Shown here in pieces: positions 1,892 to 25,070 of a DNA stretch of 25,921 nucleotides. Where the stretch lies: positions 1-25,921 of IMG/VR virus record IMGVR_UViG_3300047322_000660; one strand, written 5' to 3'. The stretch comes from a virus. Below the pieces are notes generated by a model. That model did no database searches, was not told the origin of the DNA, and was given only the letters and a program-made list of their open reading frames with translations. Each line of letters opens with the position of its first letter. Within the stretch, counting starts at the first letter, position 1. Both the position numbers and the translations under genes were made by a program.

Positions 1892-2599
1892 TCAGGCTGG
1901 CTGCAGCCTGCGGTTTGTCAGCGCCAAGATGGACCTGATGTCATCCGCCATCTGGCTCTCACGCCAAGCCTTGTACGCAGCCTTATCAGCTGCGTATTTC
2001 TCTGATGCTCCTGCGTAGGTGGCGTCCCCGGGCACCTGGCCACTTGCCGCATTGACGTGGTCGACGGCGACCGCGCGGAGGTGCCTGATCCGTCCCGTGC
2101 CGCGGCCGAGGTTGTCCCAGACGTTGTCCACGTAGTAGTGCTCCAGGCTAGGCAGGCACATCCAGCCCAGCTCCTGGACGATGTCGCTGGACATCACCAC
2201 CGCTTCGGGAATGTCCTCACGGACGCCATCCCAGGGGTAGGTGAAGCCGGTGCCGCCCATGTCCTCGATGCCGCGGCACAGCGCCTTGTCGAACCCGCGT
2301 GTTCGCGGGACGTGATCGTCACCGAAGCTGGCGAGGTACTTGTAGTTGCCCGCCTCTTGGACGGCAACCTTGTTCGTCCAGGCAGCCAGCCCCAGGCGGG
2401 CGTCGATGTCTAGAACGTCGCCAGGCTGCCCCGCCTTGTGGATTACGTGCTGGTACTGGCCGACCTCAGGGTCGTCATTATCGACCGCAGCATATACGTG
2501 CGTCTCGAGCCTCTTCAGCTCGTGAATTGAGTCGAGAAGCCGAGCCAGGTTCTTCGGCCGCCCACGGGTGGGGGTGATGATCAGCAAGTCGCCCGTCAT
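1892..2599 (-). CDS. GT-A fold (GT2-like) glycosyltransferase
   Basis: A 235-aa protein. The start ATG at 2599 has AAGGA 5 nt upstream. The N-terminus LLIITPTRGRPKNLARLLDS (residues 5-24) is the usual first strand and nucleotide-binding loop of GT-A glycosyltransferases. AVDNDDPE (38-45) fits the second strand. FGDDH (92-96) is the DxD-like metal and sugar-nucleotide site, and HYYVDNVW further on is consistent with an acceptor-side acidic motif. It should move a sugar from a nucleotide sugar to an acceptor; donor and acceptor cannot be read from sequence. It is the last enzyme of a run containing a second glycosyltransferase and two methyltransferases, directly before virion genes, which suggests modification of a virion protein or another surface glycan. 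There is no membrane segment, so it is cytosolic. Confidence 0.85.
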   Translation of the reverse strand: MTGDLLIITPTRGRPKNLARLLDSIHELKRLETHVYAAVDNDDPEVGQYQHVIHKAGQPGDVLDIDARLGLAAWTNKVAVQEAGNYKYLASFGDDHVPRTRGFDKALCRGIEDMGGTGFTYPWDGVREDIPEAVVMSSDIVQELGWMCLPSLEHYYVDNVWDNLGRGTGRIRHLRAVAVDHVNAASGQVPGDATYAGASEKYAADKAAYKAWRESQMADDIRSILALTNRRLQPA

Positions 2600-2720
2600 G
2601 TCTATCCTTCACTGGTATCTCACGCCGGACCCAGGCTCGCAGGTATATCTCCCGGTGCCGTGGGTTATCCCAGTCAAGCTCACCTGTCTCGATGAGCTGC
2701 GTCAGTTTCTCGCTCAGCAC
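2478..2720 (-). CDS. Small ORF between methyltransferase and glycosyltransferase, possibly frameshifted
   Basis: The GTG at 2720 overlaps the stop of the upstream methyltransferase (GTGCTGA), with AGGTG upstream. The first 42 or so residues (for example LTQLIETGELDWDNPRH and REIYLRAWVRREI) look like genuine protein. From about base 2599 onward the frame overlaps the glycosyltransferase gene by 122 nt and becomes shadow-like sequence rich in Ala, Arg and His. Either this is a short real gene with a long overlap, or an indel has separated a small gene from its proper stop. I do not recognise its function. The region 2600-2713 would otherwise be a gap of 114 nt in a packed operon, which supports something being encoded here. 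Confidence 0.4.
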   Translation of the reverse strand: MLSEKLTQLIETGELDWDNPRHREIYLRAWVRREIPVKDRHDGRLADHHPHPWAAEEPGSASRLNSRAEEARDARICCGR

Positions 2721-3322
2721 TGCATGACACCTAGCCCGTACGTGCCTGCGACGTTCACCCACTTACGGCCTGTCTCCTGGCAGTATTCATCCAGCGCCTG
2801 GCGCACCGGTGGGATGCCCTTCGGCGGGGTATAGCCGGGCCAGGAGAGAAGGTCGGTGTCGTGGAACAGCGCCACCCCACCGGGAACCACTCGAGGCACG
2901 TAGGCGTGAAGCTCCGCCTTGACGTGCTCATACTCGTGGTTGCTGTCCACGAAGAGGATGCCGACCTCACCGGGCAGCTTCGCCTGCGTCTCCGCTGCCA
3001 GGTCGTCACCCTGGACGAACGTCCACCGCTTGATGTCCTTCCACGGCTTCATCCCGTCTGGGTACCTGAGGACGTCGTCGATGTCAGCCGACCAGACGTG
3101 GCCGCCTGACTCCTTAGCGCCCGCCAGGAAGGCGAGTGTGGAGTTGCCGCGCCGCGCGCCTAGCTCCAAGACGCGCACGCTGGGGCGTGACCGCGCCTGC
3201 TCGTAGAATATAGGCAGGTACTCCTGGATGTCACTCCACCGCGAGAGCCTGTCGAGGTAGCCGTCGTAGACGGTGGTGACGACCTTCTCCAAGTCTGAGC
3301 TGTACCGCAAAGCCAGCGCCAC
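2714..3322 (-). CDS. Class I SAM-dependent methyltransferase (Methyltransf_24-like)
   Basis: A 202-aa protein. The GTG start at 3322 shares its first base with the stop of the upstream gene (TAGTG), so translation is probably coupled. RVLELGARRGNSTLAFL (about residues 50-66) is motif I, the glycine-rich SAM loop. VWSADID (about 76-82) carries the acidic residue that binds the SAM ribose. FVQGDD and GILFVDSNHEYEHV follow, and PGGVALFHDTD closes the Rossmann core. The VDSNHEYEHV and LFHDTD pattern is typical of the Methyltransf_24 family, including sugar and antibiotic O-methyltransferases and cephalosporin-hydroxylase-like proteins. In this cluster the likely substrate is a sugar or glycosylated product, but that is inferred from neighbours only. 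Confidence 0.85.
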   Translation of the reverse strand: MALALRYSSDLEKVVTTVYDGYLDRLSRWSDIQEYLPIFYEQARSRPSVRVLELGARRGNSTLAFLAGAKESGGHVWSADIDDVLRYPDGMKPWKDIKRWTFVQGDDLAAETQAKLPGEVGILFVDSNHEYEHVKAELHAYVPRVVPGGVALFHDTDLLSWPGYTPPKGIPPVRQALDEYCQETGRKWVNVAGTYGLGVMQC

Positions 3323-4074
3323 TACTTACCTGGCCACGGGCCGTAGAAAACTTGGCGATGCCGGTCTTTGTACTCCTGCTCGGCTAGCTCATCGCACTCA
3401 GCGTCTGTCGCCTTGATAGCGTGGAAGACGCTGCGGTTGCCTTCATACAGCCGAGTGACATTTTTCACCTCAGCGAATCCCGTCGTCATCAGCATCGCTG
3501 CCACAGCTGACGGGTTTGGGCTCCACCAAGTGGTGGGATCGTTGTTGACTTCACCCCCGGGATGGAACACAGCTGCAGGCCGGAGATCACGCATCGTCTG
3601 AGTGTCGATGACCGTATCGACGATAGCAAGGCCGCCCGGTTTCGTCATCGAAGCGACCTTCTCAATCGCCAGCAGCGGGTGCTTGAGATGATACAAGACA
3701 CCGAGAAACAGCACCACATCGAATCTGCCTGCATGCGGGTCGAGATCGTAGACGCTGACTTCCAGTGGCTCGACTTTCGACCCGAGTTGATCTCTGGCGA
3801 AGTCGAACGCTGATCTGCCTGATGTCTCCCACACATCAGAGGCGACGACTCGCTCAGCACCACGCTTCTCACACTCGAACGAGTAGAACCCGTCCCAGCA
3901 GCCGATGTCAAGCACAGACAAGCCCGTCAAATTGTCCGGGATCATCATAACGGAGAGTGCAGCGCCCTTGCCGTTGATACTCGGTGTGAAGATACCAGGC
4001 CGGAGCTCAATCGAGTGCCACCAGAAAAGCTTACCTGCCGCTTCTTGCAACTCTTCGTCTGTCATGTCAGACAA
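3322..4074 (-). CDS. CmoB-like SAM-dependent methyltransferase (DUF1698 type)
   Basis: A 250-aa protein. The TTG at 4074 is preferred because GGAG lies 7 nt upstream; the in-frame ATG at 4065 would have a spacing of 16. FWWHSIELRPGIFTPSINGK near residue 18 resembles the WxHxIELxPGxxTPG signature of the CmoB/DUF1698 group. SVLDIGCWDGFYSFECEKRG follows as SAM motif I, then VVASDVW, DVVLFLGVLYHLKHP and a KPGG loop. CmoB itself carboxymethylates tRNA wobble uridine, but short relatives in phage and capsule clusters act on other substrates, often sugars. This protein lacks the long N-terminal domain of true CmoB. It overlaps the tiny ORF upstream by 8 nt and the next methyltransferase by 1 nt. Confidence 0.82.
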   Translation of the reverse strand: MSDMTDEELQEAAGKLFWWHSIELRPGIFTPSINGKGAALSVMMIPDNLTGLSVLDIGCWDGFYSFECEKRGAERVVASDVWETSGRSAFDFARDQLGSKVEPLEVSVYDLDPHAGRFDVVLFLGVLYHLKHPLLAIEKVASMTKPGGLAIVDTVIDTQTMRDLRPAAVFHPGGEVNNDPTTWWSPNPSAVAAMLMTTGFAEVKNVTRLYEGNRSVFHAIKATDAECDELAEQEYKDRHRQVFYGPWPGK

Positions 4075-4135
4075 AGACGATCTCCATCGAGTAGTCGCCT
4101 ACTTTTTCGCGAATTGCATTGGCAAGGTTGCTCAC
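4067..4135 (-). CDS. Tiny 22-residue ORF bridging two enzyme genes
   Basis: The GTG at 4135 overlaps the glycosyltransferase stop by 4 nt (GTGA), and its TGA at 4069-4067 overlaps the TTG start of the methyltransferase by 8 nt. The peptide contains NLANAIREKVGDYSMEIVFV. It exactly fills an otherwise unexplained 57-nt gap between two genes in a tightly coupled operon. It may be a real micropeptide, a leader that couples translation of the two enzymes, or the broken N-terminus of the methyltransferase. No independent ribosome site is evident beyond the end of the preceding gene. Confidence 0.4.
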   Translation of the reverse strand: MSNLANAIREKVGDYSMEIVFV

Positions 4136-5274
4136 TTGATTCTCTCTTCTAGTTCAGCCATGCACGGCTTCCAGAACTGCGTGAAGATGCGGTCGGCGTC
4201 GAACAGCAAGCCGAAGTCGCGAGCCTGCTTGGCCGGCATCTCACCGTTCTCACGGGCCTGCCAGGCGGCTTCATACGCCTGCTCGATGTCACTGACGTCG
4301 GGCCTGACCCACCAGGCACCGTTCCCATTCGACCAGAACGGCGTCCCCGACACCAGCCAGCCGGTGCCGCAAAGCTCTCGCATTGATGAGCCGCTCGTCG
4401 TCACCACGGGGATGCCGCATGCCTGAGCCTCGATCAGTGGGAGGCCGAAGCCCTCAGCGTACGAGCACAAGGACAGGATGTCGAGGCCGCGGTACCAGGT
4501 GGCTAGCTGCTCGCGTGAGATCGCGCCGGTATCGTAAAGGTACTGGTCAGGGAATGCCAGCGCGTGCGTGATCCCCATCCGGGCCGCCATGCCCATGAGG
4601 TTCAGGCCGGGGTTGGCGACAGGCACCGTGTGAAGTGACAGGACGCTATCCGGGTGCCGGGCGTGAAACTGGCTGAACGCCTGCATCTGCTCCGCGAGCC
4701 CCTTGCGATGCGGGTCGCGGTTCATCGCGCAGATCCCGACGACGAAGGTATCGTCACCGTTGATCTCCGGCACCGTATCACGGTACGGCTGCCTGTCGCC
4801 AGGCGAGAACACCGCGGTGTCGACACCGTGCGGCACGAAGAGGGGGTCAGCTCCCTCAGCCCTGATCACCTTCTGGCCGTGCTGGCTCATCGCGATGGGA
4901 ATGCCCTGGCCCTCGCGCAACACGGTGACATCCGCCTCACCGAGAGGTGCGCAGTCGACCGGGAACCAGTGAGCGACGTTGACCTGCGCTAGTGCCTTCG
5001 CCGACTTCAGCAGGCCGAAGACGTCACACAAGGTGATCATCAGGTCGGCCTGGTGAAATTCATAGTTCTGGATGATCACGTCATTGCCGGCGGGGTCACG
5101 CACCGACGGCAGGACGGGGAAGCCCTCCCACTCAAGGATCGAGCCACCGAAGCTGTATGGTGCCGCGATGACGACTTCGTGCCCCAGGCTGGCTATCCGT
5201 GGGACGAACAGCGCCGTCTGGACACCGTAGCCGGACCCGTTCCAGGGGGCATTTGAATGCCAGATGATCTTAAT
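4132..5274 (-). CDS. GT4-like (GT-B fold) glycosyltransferase, apparent ATT start
   Basis: A 380-aa protein if translation starts at ATT 5274. The first residues then read I-KIIWHSNAPWNGSGYGVQT, which matches the normal GT-B N-terminus where a Met would stand. An in-frame TGA at 5283-5281 excludes a longer protein. The next GTG, at 5103, would remove the whole glycine-rich donor loop. GGAAGG lies 11 nt upstream of the ATT. Later motifs include LFVPHGVDTAVFSPGD, VGICAMNRDPHRKG and the retaining-GT signature EGFGLPLIEAQACGIPVVTT with its E-x7-E pair. The protein likely moves a sugar from a nucleotide sugar to a protein or glycan. It heads the glycosyl/methyl-transfer operon. Confidence 0.87.
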   Translation of the reverse strand: MKIIWHSNAPWNGSGYGVQTALFVPRIASLGHEVVIAAPYSFGGSILEWEGFPVLPSVRDPAGNDVIIQNYEFHQADLMITLCDVFGLLKSAKALAQVNVAHWFPVDCAPLGEADVTVLREGQGIPIAMSQHGQKVIRAEGADPLFVPHGVDTAVFSPGDRQPYRDTVPEINGDDTFVVGICAMNRDPHRKGLAEQMQAFSQFHARHPDSVLSLHTVPVANPGLNLMGMAARMGITHALAFPDQYLYDTGAISREQLATWYRGLDILSLCSYAEGFGLPLIEAQACGIPVVTTSGSSMRELCGTGWLVSGTPFWSNGNGAWWVRPDVSDIEQAYEAAWQARENGEMPAKQARDFGLLFDADRIFTQFWKPCMAELEERIK

Positions 5275-6531: not shown

Positions 6532-9318
6532 TCATGCCTGCCTGTCTCCCACCGTGGATGTGTACCGGCTCGCATTCATCGCCATCATCGTCGCGATGCG
6601 GTTTGCCCTGATCTGCTGCTTGGCGAGCTCATATTCGTCATCAATCGACTTACGCCCCGTCCTGCTCTGCCCGGGTACCGCCATGACGTGGCCCGACCCG
6701 ACAGGAGCAAGACCCGGTGGCATGTTCACCACGGCCGCGAACTCACGCGCTGAATCCGGCGACTGTGGTGACCCTGTCACCCGAGCTGAAGAATGCGGAT
6801 GTGGCGCCTCTCTAACTGGAGGCTTGGAACCGGTGAAGCTGTCCCTGGCGCCCTCCGCCGCACGAGCCAGGCTGTGCCGGCCGGCCGCATGCAGCAGGAA
6901 TGCGGCGTTGTCCATGTGATCCTTGGCAGTGCTGAAGCGGCCCTCTTGAGCCGCCGTCCTCGCTCGGTCGATGGCGTTAGCCGCTTCTGTGCTGTGGTTA
7001 GCGGCAAGCCCTCCCAGCTCATTCAGTGACCGGTCGTGCTCGACCGTACCCGCGTTGCCGACGTGAACCCACCCGTGGGTATAGCCGTGCGGTCCTGCCT
7101 TCTCGAGCTCGCCTTGTATCCGCCTGGTGAAGATGTCCTGCTTGGCGTCATCATACGAGCCGAAGAAGCTGTCATGCGACATGGTGATACCTGCTGACTT
7201 GAGAGATGGAGGCAGCTCCACACCTGGGAACTTGCGCTGAGCGATTTCTCTGAGCCGCTGGCGGATGCTCTCAGGGTCAGCGGCGTGGTGAGCCAGGCTT
7301 GCTGCTCGTCCCAGGTCTTTGGGGGTGATGATGGGGTAGCTGCGGTGAGGCCCGGCGAAGTCCTCGTCTGGCAGTGAGTCACGGATTGAGCTGCCACGCT
7401 TTGAGCCGCGGCGGCCCTCAATCTCATCTCGGATCGCCTGGTGAGAGCGAGAAACCTGGCCATCCTTGCCGAGTGCCTTGGCCCGGCGCTGGAACTCCTC
7501 GTCGGTCTTCTCTAGCTCCTTGTCGCTGAGTGACCGTGCTAGCGACCGGCGCTCCTTCATGGTGCTGATCATGTTGAGCTTGTCGGCGGCGTGGCCAACT
7601 GGCTTCGCCTTGCTGCCCGTCCGGATCCGGCGTGCCTTCGACTTAGCCTGCGCATTGGTCAGGTTACCATGAGCGACCGCACGGTGCAGCTGCGCCATCT
7701 GCTTGTGATAGGCGATGGCTTCATCACTGCTGCTGGCGTTCGCCGCCTGACGGTGAAGTCGTGCCGCCTCCTTGTGACCGGCCACCGACGAGGCACTGCC
7801 ACCACGATGAGCCAGGACGTTGTCGGTGACCTTCTCTGCCTTGTCCTCGGCGGCTTCATCCTTGCCGACACCAACGTAGATCCAGCCATGAACGTAGCCG
7901 TGCGGGCCGGCTTTCTCCAGATCCGGTTCAGAATCCTTGCCGACCGCGGCCACTCGCGTAGACCGCCTTCTCGCTAGCTCTGCCTCAAGCTCCGCATCAT
8001 TGAGCTCCTCCAGTGTCTTGCTCCGGTTGAGTCCCATGCCGGCTTCAACCTCAGCATCACTTGGAGTCGTGGGGACGCCAAGGCCCTGCTCAAGCTCACG
8101 GATGTGCGCGGCGTCGGAGTGAACTCGCTTCGCCTGGTCCATCCGAGCGATCTGGCGTTCAAGGCCGGTCTTGACCGTCTCGAAGTTCCGGTACTTTTTC
8201 TTGTCGTAAGATGTGCGAAGAGCCGCATTGCGCCACGCACTGTAAGCCTCCTGAAGACGCGCCTTCGCCTCAGTAAGGTTCCCCTTCCGGACCTCATCCG
8301 AGGCGACAGCGATCTCGTTAGCGGTGTCGTGGTCAAAGTAGCTGCCGTCGTGCGTCATCACGTCTCGCGACATGTTCAGGAGCGCATCTGCGTGCCGAGC
8401 AGATCCTAGCTCCTTGTCGTTGACGTCCCACTCGCCTGAATCTAGCTTGCTGTCAGACGACAGCGTGTAATGCTCTCCGTCGATCTTGCTCGTGCGGCCT
8501 TCATCATTGAGGTCACCCTCTTGGTGACGCCTGACCCACTCATCCATGAACCGCACTCGGATGTCGTGTGGGATGTAGGCGTTGTTGGCAGACCTAAGCA
8601 GGTGATGCGTCGGCATCGACCGCGGGTCGATGCTGGCGGCTCCACTGTTGCCGTGGTAGGAAGGCGGCCCTGTGAACGGCTCACTATCCTTATACCAGCG
8701 GCCACGGCGATCACGCAGCTCTAGTGGGTTGAACCGCTTATCAACCTTCTTCGCCGCTGCCAGCCGGTGCCGTCGTGCGAGCTCTTCCTCAAGCTCAGCA
8801 TCTGACATCTCCGACACCAGCCGAGAGTCGTTGACACCCATGCTGTCTCGAATCTCTTGGTCGCTCAGCAGCGGTGGCAAGCTGAGCTGATCCTCTAGGT
8901 CTTGCGTATGAGCCAGGCTGCCGAGCTTACTGATGTGATCGTCCAGAGCTTCTTGAGCTTTTTCCCACCCCTGCTTAGTCTCATGAGGGATGGTTTTCTT
9001 ATTTCCTAGCTCGTGCTGGTAGCTGATGTAATCCTGCTGACGCCGTATTTCTTCTTTAAGCAAGTCACGGGCTTCTTCTAGCTTGCTCTTGGCGTGACGG
9101 AAGTCACCGGCAACTACTGCATTAGCTGCCTCGGTGACGGGAGCCGGCACCGAGTCACTAGCTCTGCTAAGCTTCTGGTTCTTGATGCCGTCAGCCAGGC
9201 TGTGAAGCGCGTCTGCATGATCTTGAGTTCCCGGCGCACCGTGGAAGACCCAGCCATGAGTGAACCCGTGTGGGCCAGCCTTGATGATCTCGCCTGACTC
9301 GGGGACGCCGAGGATCAC
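6532..9318 (-). CDS. Large modular protein with three GPHG-HGW repeats, downstream of TerL
   Basis: A 928-aa protein from GTG 9318, overlapping the TerL stop by 4 nt (GTGA). Three copies of KAGPHG(F/Y)xHGW(V/I) occur: at residues 13-24, in the middle (bases about 7875-7920) and near the C-terminus (about 7060-7110). The first and third are followed by helical segments with ANA-x8-AK-x3-EEA-like patterns. DAELEEELARR-type endings occur near 8020 and 8800. The rest is charged and probably coiled or helical, with no membrane segment or clear enzyme motif. Its place right after terminase is where portal or head-morphogenesis genes usually lie, yet I see no portal signature. It could be an internal virion or head-associated protein carrying modules, or a scaffold. 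HGW motifs of this kind occur in actinophage head-region proteins as far as I recall. Confidence 0.8.
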   Translation of the reverse strand: MILGVPESGEIIKAGPHGFTHGWVFHGAPGTQDHADALHSLADGIKNQKLSRASDSVPAPVTEAANAVVAGDFRHAKSKLEEARDLLKEEIRRQQDYISYQHELGNKKTIPHETKQGWEKAQEALDDHISKLGSLAHTQDLEDQLSLPPLLSDQEIRDSMGVNDSRLVSEMSDAELEEELARRHRLAAAKKVDKRFNPLELRDRRGRWYKDSEPFTGPPSYHGNSGAASIDPRSMPTHHLLRSANNAYIPHDIRVRFMDEWVRRHQEGDLNDEGRTSKIDGEHYTLSSDSKLDSGEWDVNDKELGSARHADALLNMSRDVMTHDGSYFDHDTANEIAVASDEVRKGNLTEAKARLQEAYSAWRNAALRTSYDKKKYRNFETVKTGLERQIARMDQAKRVHSDAAHIRELEQGLGVPTTPSDAEVEAGMGLNRSKTLEELNDAELEAELARRRSTRVAAVGKDSEPDLEKAGPHGYVHGWIYVGVGKDEAAEDKAEKVTDNVLAHRGGSASSVAGHKEAARLHRQAANASSSDEAIAYHKQMAQLHRAVAHGNLTNAQAKSKARRIRTGSKAKPVGHAADKLNMISTMKERRSLARSLSDKELEKTDEEFQRRAKALGKDGQVSRSHQAIRDEIEGRRGSKRGSSIRDSLPDEDFAGPHRSYPIITPKDLGRAASLAHHAADPESIRQRLREIAQRKFPGVELPPSLKSAGITMSHDSFFGSYDDAKQDIFTRRIQGELEKAGPHGYTHGWVHVGNAGTVEHDRSLNELGGLAANHSTEAANAIDRARTAAQEGRFSTAKDHMDNAAFLLHAAGRHSLARAAEGARDSFTGSKPPVREAPHPHSSARVTGSPQSPDSAREFAAVVNMPPGLAPVGSGHVMAVPGQSRTGRKSIDDEYELAKQQIRANRIATMMAMNASRYTSTVGDRQA

Positions 9319-10823
9319 ACCGTCTCCAGTTCCTGGTCGAGGCCGAGCGGCATCCGGCAGCTGGGGCAGGCCAGCCGCGGCTGGCCGTTCTCCGTGGCGA
9401 GGAAGACATTGCCGCAGTTCTCGCAACGGGTGACGCCGTAAGCGTCCAGGAAGCTAGCGGTAATAAGGTCGCGGAGGTCGGTGCAGGCCCAGACGCAGGC
9501 GTCAAGCCGGTCCGGCGACACCGGGTCCATCGGCGTCCACTGGCAGAGCTCGTCTTCCAGGTACGGGAACACACCAGCATGGTGGATACGCCGCTGCTCA
9601 TAGAGGCTGGAGATCGGCTCAGCTCGAGTGTGCTTGCCTCTGGTGGCGCGCACCGCTCTGAACGGGACGTTCTGGTCGACGGTGTGCAGCAGCGTCCCGA
9701 TGTAGTCACCGCCATTGTTCACCTCAGCGACGACGCGGTCAGCCTTGAACTCGTGGTAGGCCTCGACGATCCTGGACATGACCTCTTTGGGTGTGCCTCG
9801 CATCGTGAAGTCAGCGAGGATGTAGCCGTGCCCGGTCCGCGCCGCGCCGGCGACGACGATGCCGGTCTGCGCACTGGACTCACCATCGGTGACGGCGGGG
9901 TCAACCCCGATGACGACGCGAACAAGATCTGGGACGCCGTTTGGTGCGATACGAGTCTCTTCAATCCAGTCACGGCGCCACAGCGCTGCGTCATTGTCCT
10001 CGAGAAGCTCAGCGTCCAGCTCCTGGCGGCCCAGCCTGGTACCCAGCAGCGGGGCGATGACGTTCACCTTGTACGACTCAGACAGGTTGCTGAGGTTGTC
10101 GACCGTCCGGCCACGGGTGATGATCGTCGTCTCACGCTGCATCAGGCCAGCTCGAGCCGGGTCGGGATCGATGACCTTCAGCAGTGGGACGGGCCGCGGG
10201 GTCGTCGCCACCACAATCTGCGTCCTGTAGTCATCATCCCAGTAGGACTTCTTCGGGAGCCGAGTGGCGATCGTCAGGTTCGACCACGTGGTGTCCGTGA
10301 CCGTCCCCTTGAAGGCGTCGTTCCAGAAGCAGCTCTCGTCGCCCCAGGCGAAGTTGAACTGCGGGCCTCTAAGCCGCCATGGCTTCTCCGACGTGAAGGT
10401 CTTGAACCTGCTGCCGTTATCCAGGTACAGCTCACCCATCGACCGGTTCCAGGCACCGTCTTCACTGCCACCGCGAAGCTCTTCCTTGCGGAAGCACGTC
10501 AGCAGCCCGGAGTCACCCTCCACCATGGTGTCTCGCGCGTCACCAATCGTCCTCGCCACCAGGGCGATACGTGCGCCGGGATACCGGCGCGCCTTCTCCG
10601 CCGACCACTCCGCCGCGGTACGTGACTTGCCCCAGCCTCGGCCTGCCAGGATGAGCCAGACGAACCAGTTGCCATCTGGCGGCAGCTGCTCAGGCCGGGC
10701 GATGTCAGCCCAGCGCCGGTGGCCGAGGTTCTTCTCATCCGACTCGATCTGCCTGAGCTCGTCCTTCAGCTCCTTGAGGCGCTTCAGCCGCTCGAGCTTG
10801 AGCTCCACTACGGTGTCAGCCAT
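9315..10823 (-). CDS. terL: Terminase large subunit with C-terminal zinc ribbon
   Basis: A 502-aa protein. Of GTG 10829, ATG 10826 and ATG 10823, the last is chosen because GGAGG stands 5 nt before it. A coiled N-terminus (residues 7-31) precedes the ATPase: Walker A AGRGWGKS at 60-67 and Walker B NFAWGDE with Asp-Glu at 162-163. The RNase H-like nuclease shows VIGVDPAVTDG, then VVAEVNNGGD, then PDRLDACVWA, supplying the usual three acidic positions. It packages DNA into proheads using ATP and cuts concatemers. Unusually, the C-terminus ends in a zinc ribbon, CENCGNVF...LACPSC. It starts beside a divergent promoter region. The TerS-like gene lies about 1.2 kb away across a plus-strand cassette. 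Confidence 0.96.
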   Translation of the reverse strand: MADTVVELKLERLKRLKELKDELRQIESDEKNLGHRRWADIARPEQLPPDGNWFVWLILAGRGWGKSRTAAEWSAEKARRYPGARIALVARTIGDARDTMVEGDSGLLTCFRKEELRGGSEDGAWNRSMGELYLDNGSRFKTFTSEKPWRLRGPQFNFAWGDESCFWNDAFKGTVTDTTWSNLTIATRLPKKSYWDDDYRTQIVVATTPRPVPLLKVIDPDPARAGLMQRETTIITRGRTVDNLSNLSESYKVNVIAPLLGTRLGRQELDAELLEDNDAALWRRDWIEETRIAPNGVPDLVRVVIGVDPAVTDGESSAQTGIVVAGAARTGHGYILADFTMRGTPKEVMSRIVEAYHEFKADRVVAEVNNGGDYIGTLLHTVDQNVPFRAVRATRGKHTRAEPISSLYEQRRIHHAGVFPYLEDELCQWTPMDPVSPDRLDACVWACTDLRDLITASFLDAYGVTRCENCGNVFLATENGQPRLACPSCRMPLGLDQELETV

Positions 10824-10842
10824 CATCACCTCCAGAGCGGGC

Positions 10843-12575: not shown

Positions 12576-13250
12576 TTAAGCTCGGCATACCCACGGTGAG
12601 AAGTTGTAGCCGGCTCCCCTGTACTTGGCTACTGCCATCCTGGCATTGGTCCAGGGGTCGAAGGGATTGCCGGGGAATGGGACGCCGAGGATCTGCCAGA
12701 GGCCCGATGCACCCGACCGGTTGTAAGCCCGTGGGTTGCCGCCTGACTCACACTCGGCGATCGTCGCCGCGGCCCATTTGACGCCTGATGGGCCGTCTGC
12801 CGCGACCCACAGGGCCTCGAGGCCGCTGAAGCTGTAGATGCCGGCGTGAATGATGGCACCGCCGGTGTGCCGTGTCACCGCACTGGTGGTCACTACCCGG
12901 ACGGGCGGCTTGTAGCCGGCTTCCGTCCTGAGTGCGATCCGCTCACCAGCTGTGATGCTGTCCGGGTTGCCGCCGAGGATGTGGCGGTTGGCCCAGTAAA
13001 GGCCTTCCCATCTGAGGTGGTACTTGGCCGCGATCTTACTGAGGGTGTCGCCGTGCCTGATGATGTAGAAGGCCGGCCTAGCCTGGTAACTAGCCAGGAC
13101 GAGCTTGTCGTAGCTGATGAGTGAGAATCCCGGGCGAGCGACGGTGCCAGCCGCCGCGGGCACCGCCGAGGGTCTTGCCACCAGCGTGGTGATGGACATG
13201 ATAAGGATAGCCAGTGCTGAGAAGGCCGTACTGATGTACCTGCGACGCAC
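12576..13250 (-). CDS. Secreted LysM plus lysozyme-like (transglycosylase) lysin
   Basis: A 224-aa protein. GTG 13250 has GGAG 6 nt upstream. MRRRYISTAFSALAILIMSI is a basic N-terminus followed by a hydrophobic signal or anchor segment up to about residue 25. A LysM domain covers about 61-107 (YIIRHGDTLSKIAAKYHLRW, then ITAGERIAL) and should bind peptidoglycan. Residues 160-224 resemble a lysozyme or transglycosylase domain: TIAECESGGNPRAYN with candidate catalytic Glu168, then SGASGLWQI and a C-terminal NFSPWVC. It could be the endolysin, exported by a signal-arrest type N-terminus, or a virion or host-wall hydrolase. No separate holin is obvious, although several small membrane proteins lie nearby. 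A strong terminator follows. Confidence 0.87.
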   Translation of the reverse strand: MRRRYISTAFSALAILIMSITTLVARPSAVPAAAGTVARPGFSLISYDKLVLASYQARPAFYIIRHGDTLSKIAAKYHLRWEGLYWANRHILGGNPDSITAGERIALRTEAGYKPPVRVVTTSAVTRHTGGAIIHAGIYSFSGLEALWVAADGPSGVKWAAATIAECESGGNPRAYNRSGASGLWQILGVPFPGNPFDPWTNARMAVAKYRGAGYNFSPWVCRA

Positions 13251-17841: not shown

Positions 17842-18239
17842 GCTGGTACCGGCGATGGCAGCCACTCTCCCGGCTTAGGCAGGTGGTCACCCGCCTCTCT
17901 CATCTTCTTCAGCATCTTGGCTTTAGCCGCCTTCGCCTTGTCACCAAGCAGCTTCTTGATCTTCTTCTTGGTCTTGGGAGGCCCTTTCCACCCCCAGAGG
18001 ATAAGGATAAGGACGACCCAGCCACCAGTGGCGCAGGCGTCGGCGAAGTCACGCATGAGCAGGTAGCAGACGGCCTGGATGATGTCACCTGCGATGATGA
18101 GAAGATACCCAAGCGACATGATGAGGTCGTCATTTTCACTCAGGCCGTGCCGCCACTTCGTGAAAATGGTGTACCAGATCAGCCCACAGCCAGCCCAGCC
18201 AATGGGATACGCCACCAGTGTGAGGATGCTAGACGCCAC
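17838..18239 (-). CDS. Membrane protein with basic coiled tail
   Basis: A 133-aa protein from GTG 18239, overlapping the dCMP deaminase stop by 11 nt. Three hydrophobic segments (ILTLVAYPIGWAGCGLIWYT, IMSLGYLLIIAGDIIQAVCY, TGGWVVLILILWGW) are followed by a strongly basic helix (KTKKKIKKLLGDKAKAAKAK). The layout suggests a membrane anchor with a cytosolic basic arm that could contact DNA, RNA or acidic lipids. Function not recognised. Confidence 0.73.
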   Translation of the reverse strand: MASSILTLVAYPIGWAGCGLIWYTIFTKWRHGLSENDDLIMSLGYLLIIAGDIIQAVCYLLMRDFADACATGGWVVLILILWGWKGPPKTKKKIKKLLGDKAKAAKAKMLKKMREAGDHLPKPGEWLPSPVPA

Positions 18240-18729
18240 GAGGCGTCACCTCCTCCCAGTGGATGCCGCAGAGGTCGAACATCTCCTTTGCCTGCTCGGG
18301 GTTGCGGTACGAGCCATACGGAGACGCGTACCACACGGCCTGGACCACTCCCGTGTTGCAGATCATCTTGGTGCAGGAGTAGCACGGCACGCTAGAGATA
18401 TAAAAGGTACCGCCCGGCATCCGCGTGGAGTCCGCCTTGGCGATGCAGTTGATCTCCGCGTGGACGGACGGGCAGTCGGTGTACCCGGGCTCACGGTCGG
18501 GCGGGTCCTTGAAGGCACGTGGGCAATAGGCGATGCAGCCGACTTGCTCAAGCTCTTCCGGCCTAGCCATCCGCTGCAAGCTGAAGCCGGTTGGCGGCCC
18601 GGCATACCCGGTCTGCACAATCCGCTGGCTGGTGTCGACTGCCACCGCACCCGCACCTGAGGCACACCACGACCTCGCCGACATGATGACGGCTAGCTGC
18701 AGCCACGTCTCATCCCAGGTCGGCCTCAT
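18229..18729 (-). CDS. dCMP deaminase (cytidine/deoxycytidylate deaminase family)
   Basis: A 166-aa protein that converts dCMP to dUMP, the substrate of thymidylate synthase; zinc-dependent and cytosolic. GAVAVDTSQRIVQTGYAGPP (28-46) is the N-terminal deaminase block. Residues H90, A91, E92 (SVHAEINCI) give the zinc ligand and proton-shuttling Glu. PCYSC (115-119) gives the two Cys ligands. C65, C69 and C86 between these blocks recall the extra zinc site of some phage dCMP deaminases. Length fits the family. ThyX is encoded at 24291 on the other strand, so the phage supplies two consecutive steps to dTMP. It overlaps the membrane protein gene downstream by 11 nt. Confidence 0.93.
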   Translation of the reverse strand: MRPTWDETWLQLAVIMSARSWCASGAGAVAVDTSQRIVQTGYAGPPTGFSLQRMARPEELEQVGCIAYCPRAFKDPPDREPGYTDCPSVHAEINCIAKADSTRMPGGTFYISSVPCYSCTKMICNTGVVQAVWYASPYGSYRNPEQAKEMFDLCGIHWEEVTPRGV

Positions 18730-23252: not shown

Positions 23253-23282
23253 CCTGCAATTGTGGTATCATTCAGTTGCAGG
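23253..23282 (+). promoter_or_regulatory. Promoter of the SPFH gene flanked by an inverted repeat
   Basis: TATCAT at 23266-23271 is the -10 candidate. It lies in the centre of an imperfect 10-bp inverted repeat, CCTGCAATTG at 23253-23262 and CAGTTGCAGG at 23273-23282 (9 of 10 match). The purine leader GGGAAGGGAA follows. A repressor bound to the repeat would cover the -10. A short GGGGC/GCCCC hairpin at 23233-23247 precedes it and may end the previous transcript. Confidence 0.55.
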
Positions 23283-23316
23283 GAAGGGAAATCAACGGAA
23301 AGGATGTGAGAGCTAC

Positions 23317-24213
23317 TTGGGACTTATCGTACTCTGGGTCCTCATTGGCCTGGTGTTCCTCGGCGGTGTCATCGGCGCCTTCGTGTCTCAGGACTACAAG
23401 TTCGTCGGCGTCATCATCGCGGTTGTCGCCTTGGTCTGCGAGGTGCTGGCCATCGTCTTCGGGCTGATGACCTCCATTGGGTCCTCGGACATCGGGGTCG
23501 TCACCTCGTTTGGGAAGCCCGCGGGAGACCTCGGGCCCGGCGTGCACTTCTTGTCGCCAACGGCGAACGTCACCGTCTGGGACGGGTCGATCCAGAAGAT
23601 CAACTACGGCCGTGACAACTGCCTGCAGGTGAAGATCGGTGGCGGCCAGAACGCGTGCATCACGCTCACGTTCACCTACCGTGTCAAGGGCAGCGCGGTG
23701 GACAACCTGTTCATCCACTACCGCACGCAAGACAACGTCAATGACCTGCTGGTGACACGTGAGCTGGATCAGGCCATCAACACCAAGCTGCAGGACTACT
23801 CACCGATCGACGAGGTCGCGAAGGGCTCGAAGAACCCCACCTCCATGGTGCCGTTCATCCAGCCCATCATCCAGCAGATGCAGAACGACATCGGCGGTGA
23901 CATCGACATCAACAGCCAGTCGCTGGTGATGCCCTACGTCACCTTCGATGACGCGACCACGAACCGCCTGAACGCGTACCAGACGCAGAAGGTGGATACC
24001 CTGATCGCCCAGGAGGCCGAGGTCACCTCGGTCGCTCAGGCGAAGGCGCTGGAGAACCTGCAGAACAGCACGGCGAAGGACCCGAACGCGATTGCGGACT
24101 GGTGCTTCACCAACATCATGGCACCCGTCGTCAAGGCGGGCGGCAACCCGGCAGGCATCCAGTGCTGGCCGGGCGGCAGCTCCCCGAACGTCGTCATCAA
24201 CCCCGGGAAGTAG
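23317..24213 (+). CDS. SPFH/band-7 (stomatin-prohibitin-like) membrane protein
   Basis: A 298-aa protein if translated from TTG 23317 (MGLIVLWVLIGLVFLGG...). The frame opens earlier at 23260, but that part overlaps the promoter. Two membrane segments lie at about 2-23 and 30-51. The SPFH domain begins at about residue 55: IGVVTSFGKPAGDLGPGVHF, then a strand-rich part with ITLTFTYRVKGSAVDNLF and NDLLVTRELDQAINTKLQDY. A helical region with QKVDTLIAQEAEVTSVAQAK follows, typical of the coiled part of stomatins. Family members form oligomeric rings in membranes and often partner with FtsH-type proteases. In a phage it may modify the host membrane or protect phage products from proteolysis. A terminator follows directly. 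Confidence 0.88.
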   Translation: MGLIVLWVLIGLVFLGGVIGAFVSQDYKFVGVIIAVVALVCEVLAIVFGLMTSIGSSDIGVVTSFGKPAGDLGPGVHFLSPTANVTVWDGSIQKINYGRDNCLQVKIGGGQNACITLTFTYRVKGSAVDNLFIHYRTQDNVNDLLVTRELDQAINTKLQDYSPIDEVAKGSKNPTSMVPFIQPIIQQMQNDIGGDIDINSQSLVMPYVTFDDATTNRLNAYQTQKVDTLIAQEAEVTSVAQAKALENLQNSTAKDPNAIADWCFTNIMAPVVKAGGNPAGIQCWPGGSSPNVVINPGK

Positions 24214-24268: not shown

Positions 24269-24290
24269 CACTGCAGTAGAGAGGATGCTC

Positions 24291-25070
24291 GTGATTCAGG
24301 TCAGCCCCGTCGTCTACCTGGTAGCCAGCCCCATGGTCGACTATGACATGCTAGCCGCCTACATGGATGACGTTGGCGGTGCCGACTGGATCAGGCACCG
24401 CGGCGGCAGAGACGCGCAGGATCTCGTGGAGGCAGCCGGCCGGACCTGCTACCGCAGCTGGGCACCGGGCCTCAACCCCAACGTGAGCAAGGTCCGCTCA
24501 GACCAGGATGACTACCTCGAGAATGTGCTGGCTCAGTACCATGGCTCCGTCCTCGAGCACGCGAACTTCACCTTCATCTTCCACCAGGTCAGCCGAGTCT
24601 TCACTCACGAGCTGGTCCGCCACCGGGCTGGGACCGCCGTGTCGCAGGAGTCGATGCGCTTCGTCCGCCTGACTGAGATCCCCTTCTGGTTCCCTGAGTG
24701 GGCTCAGGAAGACAAGGAGCTCATGGGCCGGGCCCTGGTCATGCTAACTCAGATGGAGGAGTTCCAGCAGTGGATGTCCGAGCACTTCAAGCTGGATGAG
24801 CCGGGAACCAGCTTCCACGAGAAGAAGCTGAAGACCAGCTTCATGCGCCGGTTCGCTCCCGAGGGCGTCGCCAGCGATATCATGTGGACCGCCAACATCA
24901 GGACACTGCGCCACGTCATCGAGTCACGGACCGCCACCGGGGCCGAGGAGGAGATCCGCAAGGTCTTCGGCATGGTCGCCGGGATCATGAAAGAGGAGGC
25001 ACCTGCTCTGTTCGGTGACTACGCGGTCAATGACGACGGCCAGTGGGTCCCAGCCTGGCGGAAGGTCTGA
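24291..25070 (+). CDS. thyX: Flavin-dependent thymidylate synthase
   Basis: Methylates dUMP to dTMP using methylenetetrahydrofolate, with FAD and NADPH; homotetrameric in known cases. The signature is LVRHRAGTAVSQESMRFVRL at about residues 108-127. It has the RHR of the ThyX motif, but the following Ser is one residue later than in the usual RHR-X7-S; the SQES form is one I recall from other phage-type ThyX. HGSVLEHANFTFIFHQVSRV and AGRTCYRSW are also typical. GTG 24291 is preferred because GAGG lies 6 nt upstream; ATG 24285 is directly next to that site. The length of 259 aa is normal. It works with the dCMP deaminase at 18229. Confidence 0.95.
   Translation: MIQVSPVVYLVASPMVDYDMLAAYMDDVGGADWIRHRGGRDAQDLVEAAGRTCYRSWAPGLNPNVSKVRSDQDDYLENVLAQYHGSVLEHANFTFIFHQVSRVFTHELVRHRAGTAVSQESMRFVRLTEIPFWFPEWAQEDKELMGRALVMLTQMEEFQQWMSEHFKLDEPGTSFHEKKLKTSFMRRFAPEGVASDIMWTANIRTLRHVIESRTATGAEEEIRKVFGMVAGIMKEEAPALFGDYAVNDDGQWVPAWRKV

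Follow-up and report, generated by a model that had tools for sequence, protein, structure and literature searches.

In phage T4, the capsid targeting sequences of the internal head proteins (IPI-III, Alt) are peptides of 10-19 residues that mark these proteins for packaging; the peptides contain a site for the prohead protease, gp21, and the targeted proteins, which include an ADP-ribosyltransferase, are injected (PMC9026906). In SPN3US, the protease gp245 processes many head and ejected proteins at a shared motif, AXE, the propeptides being single, N-terminal (C-terminal in the case of the protease itself) and up to about 130 aa long, with Glu at P1 (PMC7411985). MuF polymorphic toxins (PMC5576092) and polyvalent proteins (PMC5512222), in which MuF or portal domains are fused to ART, NUDIX, or other effectors, are encoded in the packaging gene block and are thought to be injected; neither of these two texts, when searched for linker and motif terms, mentions the linear tag described below.

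The window, i.e. the whole 25,921-nt stretch of viral DNA analyzed here, encodes a 928-aa protein directly downstream of the gene for the terminase large subunit (TerL), the GTG start codon overlapping the TerL stop codon by 4 nt. A preliminary description of the sequence had reported this overlap correctly, but had missed that the genes lie on the minus strand. The relevant features are as follows.

9315-10829, minus strand: TerL, the upstream gene (Terminase_6C 4e-13, Terminase_6N 1e-10, phrog_979 6e-31).
6532-9318, minus strand: the 928-aa ORF, GTG start and TGA stop, with four tags and helical segments.
9238-9288, minus strand: tag A copy 1, IIKA-GPHGFTHGW-VFHG, positions -4 to +12, residues 11-27 (limits from the 131-copy profile).
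8770-9231, minus strand: helical repeat domain copy 1, residues about 30-183 (homology to copy 2, E 7e-16).
8695-8745, minus strand: tag B (residues 192-208), including the element upstream of it, VDKR-FNPLELRDRRGRW.
7966-8406, minus strand: helical repeat domain copy 2, residues about 305-451 (homology to copy 1).
7870-7920, minus strand: tag A copy 2 (residues 467-483), LEKA-GPHGYVHGW-IYVG, modeled as disordered.
7417-7581, minus strand: conserved helical unit LSDKELEKTDEEFQRRAKALGKDGQVSRSHQAIRDEI, common to many tagged proteins.
7192-7416, minus strand: DFAGPHRSYPI segment (residues about 635-709), which is also found in head maturation proteases, in their C-terminal half.
7057-7107, minus strand: tag A copy 3 (residues 738-754), LEKA-GPHGYTHGW-VHVG, modeled as disordered.

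Exact copies of GPHG[YF]xHGW are present at 9250-9276, 7882-7908 and 7069-7095, with none arising in 100 dinucleotide shuffles, and KAGPHG starts at residue 13, leaving 12 residues ahead of the first copy; the three modules and the N-terminal placement given in the preliminary description are thus confirmed. The protein also has one copy of a second type of tag, tag B (FNPxExRDxxGRW), the overall order being tag A, helical repeat, tag B, homologous helical repeat, tag A, helical unit with the DFAGPHRSYPI segment, tag A, and a helical end. The repeats following tag A copy 1 and tag B are homologous (31% identity over 155 aa, E 7e-16), such that two different tags precede homologous domains in one protein; the beginning of the first repeat also matches residues 113-190 of L076 (E 5.6e-15). 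By analogy with other tagged proteins, the helical repeats and segments of the 928-aa protein may be its "cargo". In the head maturation protease of Alicyclobacillus phage MMB025, the gene for which precedes that for the major head protein, part of the C-terminal half matches the DFAGPHRSYPI segment (E 5e-9), which is also matched in large head-block proteins of relatives. The DFAGPHRSYPI unit is present in crAss-like phages as well, and a short stretch of the model that includes it shows a resemblance (E 0.57, 53 aligned positions) to a Marseillevirus 2-cysteine adaptor protein.

With respect to the identity of the protein, no family match was found in Pfam, NCBIfam, or PHROGs, no portal match was returned by these or by a genome search with PF04860, and a full-length search of viral contigs gave no match, in agreement with the earlier view that portal features are lacking. 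Portal (PF04860), MuF (PF04233), and head protease (phrog_21715) matches are absent from the 25.9-kb record, which is itself a fragment and also lacks capsid genes, and no recognized effector domain was detectable in the window. The location of the gene directly after that for TerL might suggest a highly diverged portal; however, the modeled residues 430-800 have no fold match to any portal, and relatives possess a true portal in addition to tagged proteins. With neither a profile nor a fold match, we have rejected this proposal, which we consider very improbable. The term "portal position", used in the preliminary description, is misleading. In the record with the closest TerL a real portal follows TerL and itself carries the module together with an ART-like C terminus; in another record, G016, a separate three-module protein is encoded just upstream of the portal gene.

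Other genes in the window include two for glycosyltransferases and two for methyltransferases, clustered beside the head gene (1892-5103, minus strand), with a cytidylyltransferase-like and a glycosyltransferase-like gene being in a similar place in record G037. There are also genes for a protein with LysM and SLT transglycosylase domains (12576-13250), a deoxycytidylate deaminase-type protein (18229-18729; PF00383, 1e-12), an SPFH/Band 7 family protein (23260-24213; PF01145, 4e-11), found here in a phage contig, and a ThyX-type thymidylate synthase (24285-25070; PF02511, 4e-39). The end of TerL (9315-9426) has a Cys4 zinc-ribbon-like tail (CENC...CPSC), for which the Pfam zinc-ribbon matches are weak.

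Tag A is a linear motif of 17 residues, with the consensus [ILV]-x-[K or L]-[VA]-G-P-x-G-[YF]-x-H-G-W-[IV]-x-V-G. In a profile built from 131 distinct copies, conservation extends from -4 to +12, with none beyond, although the invariance of positions 0-8 is by construction because these were fixed by the search pattern, the flanks (-4 to -1 and +9 to +12) being free. A pattern scan of IMG/VR yielded at least 119 stretches; among the matches listed, the copies form 79 groups after merging of same-contig loci and obvious duplicates, near-identical contigs being grouped manually on the basis of their names and of protein identity. A rescan restricted by codon contributed only one further contig, implying that the strict tag A family comprises about 80 IMG/VR contigs. 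Within each of 50 records the copies lie on a single strand, with a maximum of 13 in a 95.7-kb record, and the reversed pattern, used as a control, gave 0 matches in 50 records. The 145 copies are encoded by 140 distinct 27-mers, with third codon positions near-free and the DNA differing even within one genome; selection thus acts on the protein. That a given cargo is found linked through the tag to more than one carrier could be taken to suggest a recombination linker, acting at the DNA level to promote shuffling of cargo domains, but the DNA is not conserved, and this possibility, to which we attach scarcely any weight, is largely refuted by the codon divergence.

In 84,980 bacterial and archaeal genomes, the tag A pattern has 40 matches, only one of which, in a prophage-like contig of a Mycobacterium MAG, has the full context, and the other 39 look like chance. 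Short tblastn queries, which are weak because the motif is short, returned no tag A in cultured phages, and the six commonest variants were not found as strings in the literature searched. Relatives of the terminases and proteases occur mostly, among others, in actinobacterial phages, and actinobacterial hosts are therefore likely. The head genes of the cultured Microbacterium phage A3Wally (L290) lack tag A; its gp87 contains LTA[AS] five times (0.18 expected, at most three in 300 shuffles) and its gp84 and gp85 contain it once each, near the N terminus; LTA[AS] may be a cultured-phage analog of the tag.

AlphaFold models give pLDDT values below about 55 for tag A, both where it precedes an SH3-like domain and in the 928-aa protein, in which the domain flanked by copies 2 and 3 is predicted with confidence. 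A disordered tag beside confident folds argues for a linear motif rather than a fold and, on these models, GPxG[YF]xHGW is the core of a linear tag with no folded domain.

The first copy of tag A lies at most 60 aa from the N terminus in 38 of 90 complete proteins (13.6 being expected for uniform placement), and in 0 of 90 does the last copy lie within 80 aa of the C terminus. In the multi-domain proteins scanned, portal (PF04860) and MuF (PF04233) domains precede the first tag, and ART, Arr, PI3/4-kinase-like, and zeta-toxin domains come after a tag; NUDIX domains come after MuF and either before or after a tag, an SH3-like domain is also found C-terminal to tag A, and some copies precede the head protease itself. 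Among 30 ART or zeta matches in 50 records, 12 have tag A within 700 nt upstream, the rest having none that close. In the 18 records for which a portal and a protease could both be identified, the portal-protease interval extended by 5 kb on either side holds 66 of 67 copies (28.6 expected by length). Tag A thus appears to be a portable element that precedes effector-type domains in the predicted head-gene proteins of some 80 uncultivated phages. The proposal of a repeated binding or targeting module in the preliminary description is supported insofar as many phages confine the module to the head-gene block, ahead of effector-type domains; that the products are packaged and injected is our interpretation. 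One tagged head-block protein (L097:3347-7240) has an internal match to an intein splicing domain (PF14890, 5e-10).

The tag is further characterized by the residue at position -2, which is K/R throughout one set of genomes and L/F/M throughout the other, a difference resembling that between the P1 preferences of trypsin-like and chymotrypsin-like proteases. Within-genome agreement at this position is 0.944, as compared with 0.415 on shuffling, and in 0 of 2000 shuffles was the observed value reached. The rule extends to tag B and to tag C (AW[ML]HExRxxxGxW, defined after the data were seen), which have no obvious sequence in common with tag A or with one another: an element, [ILV]xK or [ILV][DE]L, sits 0-4 residues upstream of both and tracks the genome type (8:0 versus 0:25, P=7e-8), with no exception among the 33 scorable sites, a further 15 in typed genomes being unscorable. 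At independent tag B sites from other phages, K is present in the preceding three residues in 53 of 94 cases (9.3 expected). The form [FY][ND]PxxPRDxxGRWT is very common in many kinds of phage protein (L170-L284), and usually has K or R among the three preceding residues.

The K and L sets are separate phage lineages. The phrog_21715 protease matches 22 records, all K/R-type, with no match in any L-type record, and the portal, major capsid protein, and protease-like gene of L-type records differ from those of the K/R type, one L-type portal belonging to phrog_113 and one L-type major capsid protein to phrog_1650. There are, however, 86 homologous cargo pairs that cross the two types, each member having the residue of its own genome, as in L012 and L100, which are 55% identical over the 200 aa directly after the tag and have IELV in one case and LVKV in the other. 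Ancestry explains part of the signal at -2, but not its spread over three types of tag and shared cargo. This is pertinent to the proposal that the tag is a neutral or structural inter-domain spacer, duplicated inside each lineage with no reader in trans. Such a spacer would be consistent with disordered copies between domains and with the different lineages of the two sets, but would not be expected to keep G, P, H, and W while synonymous sites are saturated, nor to have the residue of its genome when the cargo is homologous, nor to share a rule at -2 with unrelated tags; we consider it unlikely.

These sequence comparisons give good support to a head factor that acts in trans and reads position -2. 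The correlation with the head gene set suggests that the reader may be the maturation protease, cutting after -2, with the products, by analogy, being packaged and injected. We propose that the 17-residue tag, which stands at the N-terminal border of cargo domains encoded in the head-gene block, is recognized in trans by a protein of the head, the head maturation protease being the likeliest candidate. Cutting after -2, i.e. after K/R in one set of phages and L/F/M in the other, would free the cargo from portal, MuF, or protease carriers, or would trim a short N-terminal leader; the conserved tag would stay on the released cargo, which would be packaged and then injected with the DNA. The 928-aa protein would accordingly be composed of four cassettes, i.e. 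tag A with a helical repeat, tag B with a helical repeat, tag A with a helical and FAGPHRSYPI unit, and tag A with a helical segment. We give about an even chance to this overall explanation, in which a processing site of the head protease (P1 being K or L) is fused to a retained tag marking packaged, injected cargo. The parts of it that the sequences themselves show are the motif with its limits, the pre-cargo position, the confinement to the head block, the disorder in models, and a genome-wide rule at -2 that depends on neither cargo nor tag type.

Two observations run counter to cleavage: the downstream half of the tag is conserved beyond the usual need of a protease site and, because N-terminal copies can start 3-10 residues from the initiator, the putative cut would remove very little there. 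It may instead be that the tag serves for docking or packaging without being cut, the 17-residue motif binding a head component (portal, scaffold, protease, or capsid lining) with -2 contacting a lineage-specific pocket. The strong conservation downstream of -2, the copies near the N terminus of stand-alone genes, the disorder of the motif, and its confinement to the head block are all consistent with docking. On the other hand, carriers such as portal fusions would need no internal docking tag, and the occurrence of one shared K or L element, 0-4 residues ahead of tags as dissimilar as A, B, and C, is more readily explained by a cut site than by a single pocket; overall, we view docking alone as less likely than not. 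With cleavage by the head protease as the preferred reading, tags A, B, and C may together constitute a "cut-and-tag" code, sharing an upstream residue set by the head machinery of each phage, with a shared cassette changing only that residue per lineage; we put this forward tentatively, as falling appreciably short of an even chance.

If correct, the proposal implies that a short tag may identify packaged, and probably injected, proteins of uncultured phages by sequence alone, and may predict processing sites and products. It would further yield a small peptide with which proteins could be loaded into phage heads, and would reveal how effector domains pass from one head assembly system to another, unrelated one.

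Compared with the MuF polymorphic toxins and polyvalent proteins, the 928-aa protein itself differs in having no MuF, portal, or enzyme domain, whereas other tag carriers, e.g. L007 and L022, are fusions of MuF or portal with effector domains. The likeness to T4 would lie in a short peptide shared by different, putatively packaged proteins, with up to 13 sites per genome in head-block genes. However, the T4 sequence precedes the cut and is removed, whereas the conserved part of tag A follows the putative cut; the region upstream of -4 is not conserved and sometimes comprises only a few residues, such that there is no conserved peptide to be removed on the N-terminal side. Tag A also differs from the T4 peptides in lying between domains, in occurring many times per genome, and in having no sequence similarity to them. 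As in SPN3US, different head proteins of one phage share a motif that would be set by its own protease, although the putative P1 here is K/R or L/F/M, rather than E, and is followed by a conserved tag. In comparison with prohead protease substrates overall, the tags combine putative cleavage sites with a genome-wide rule at position -2 that holds in three types of tag and is paired with the head gene set.
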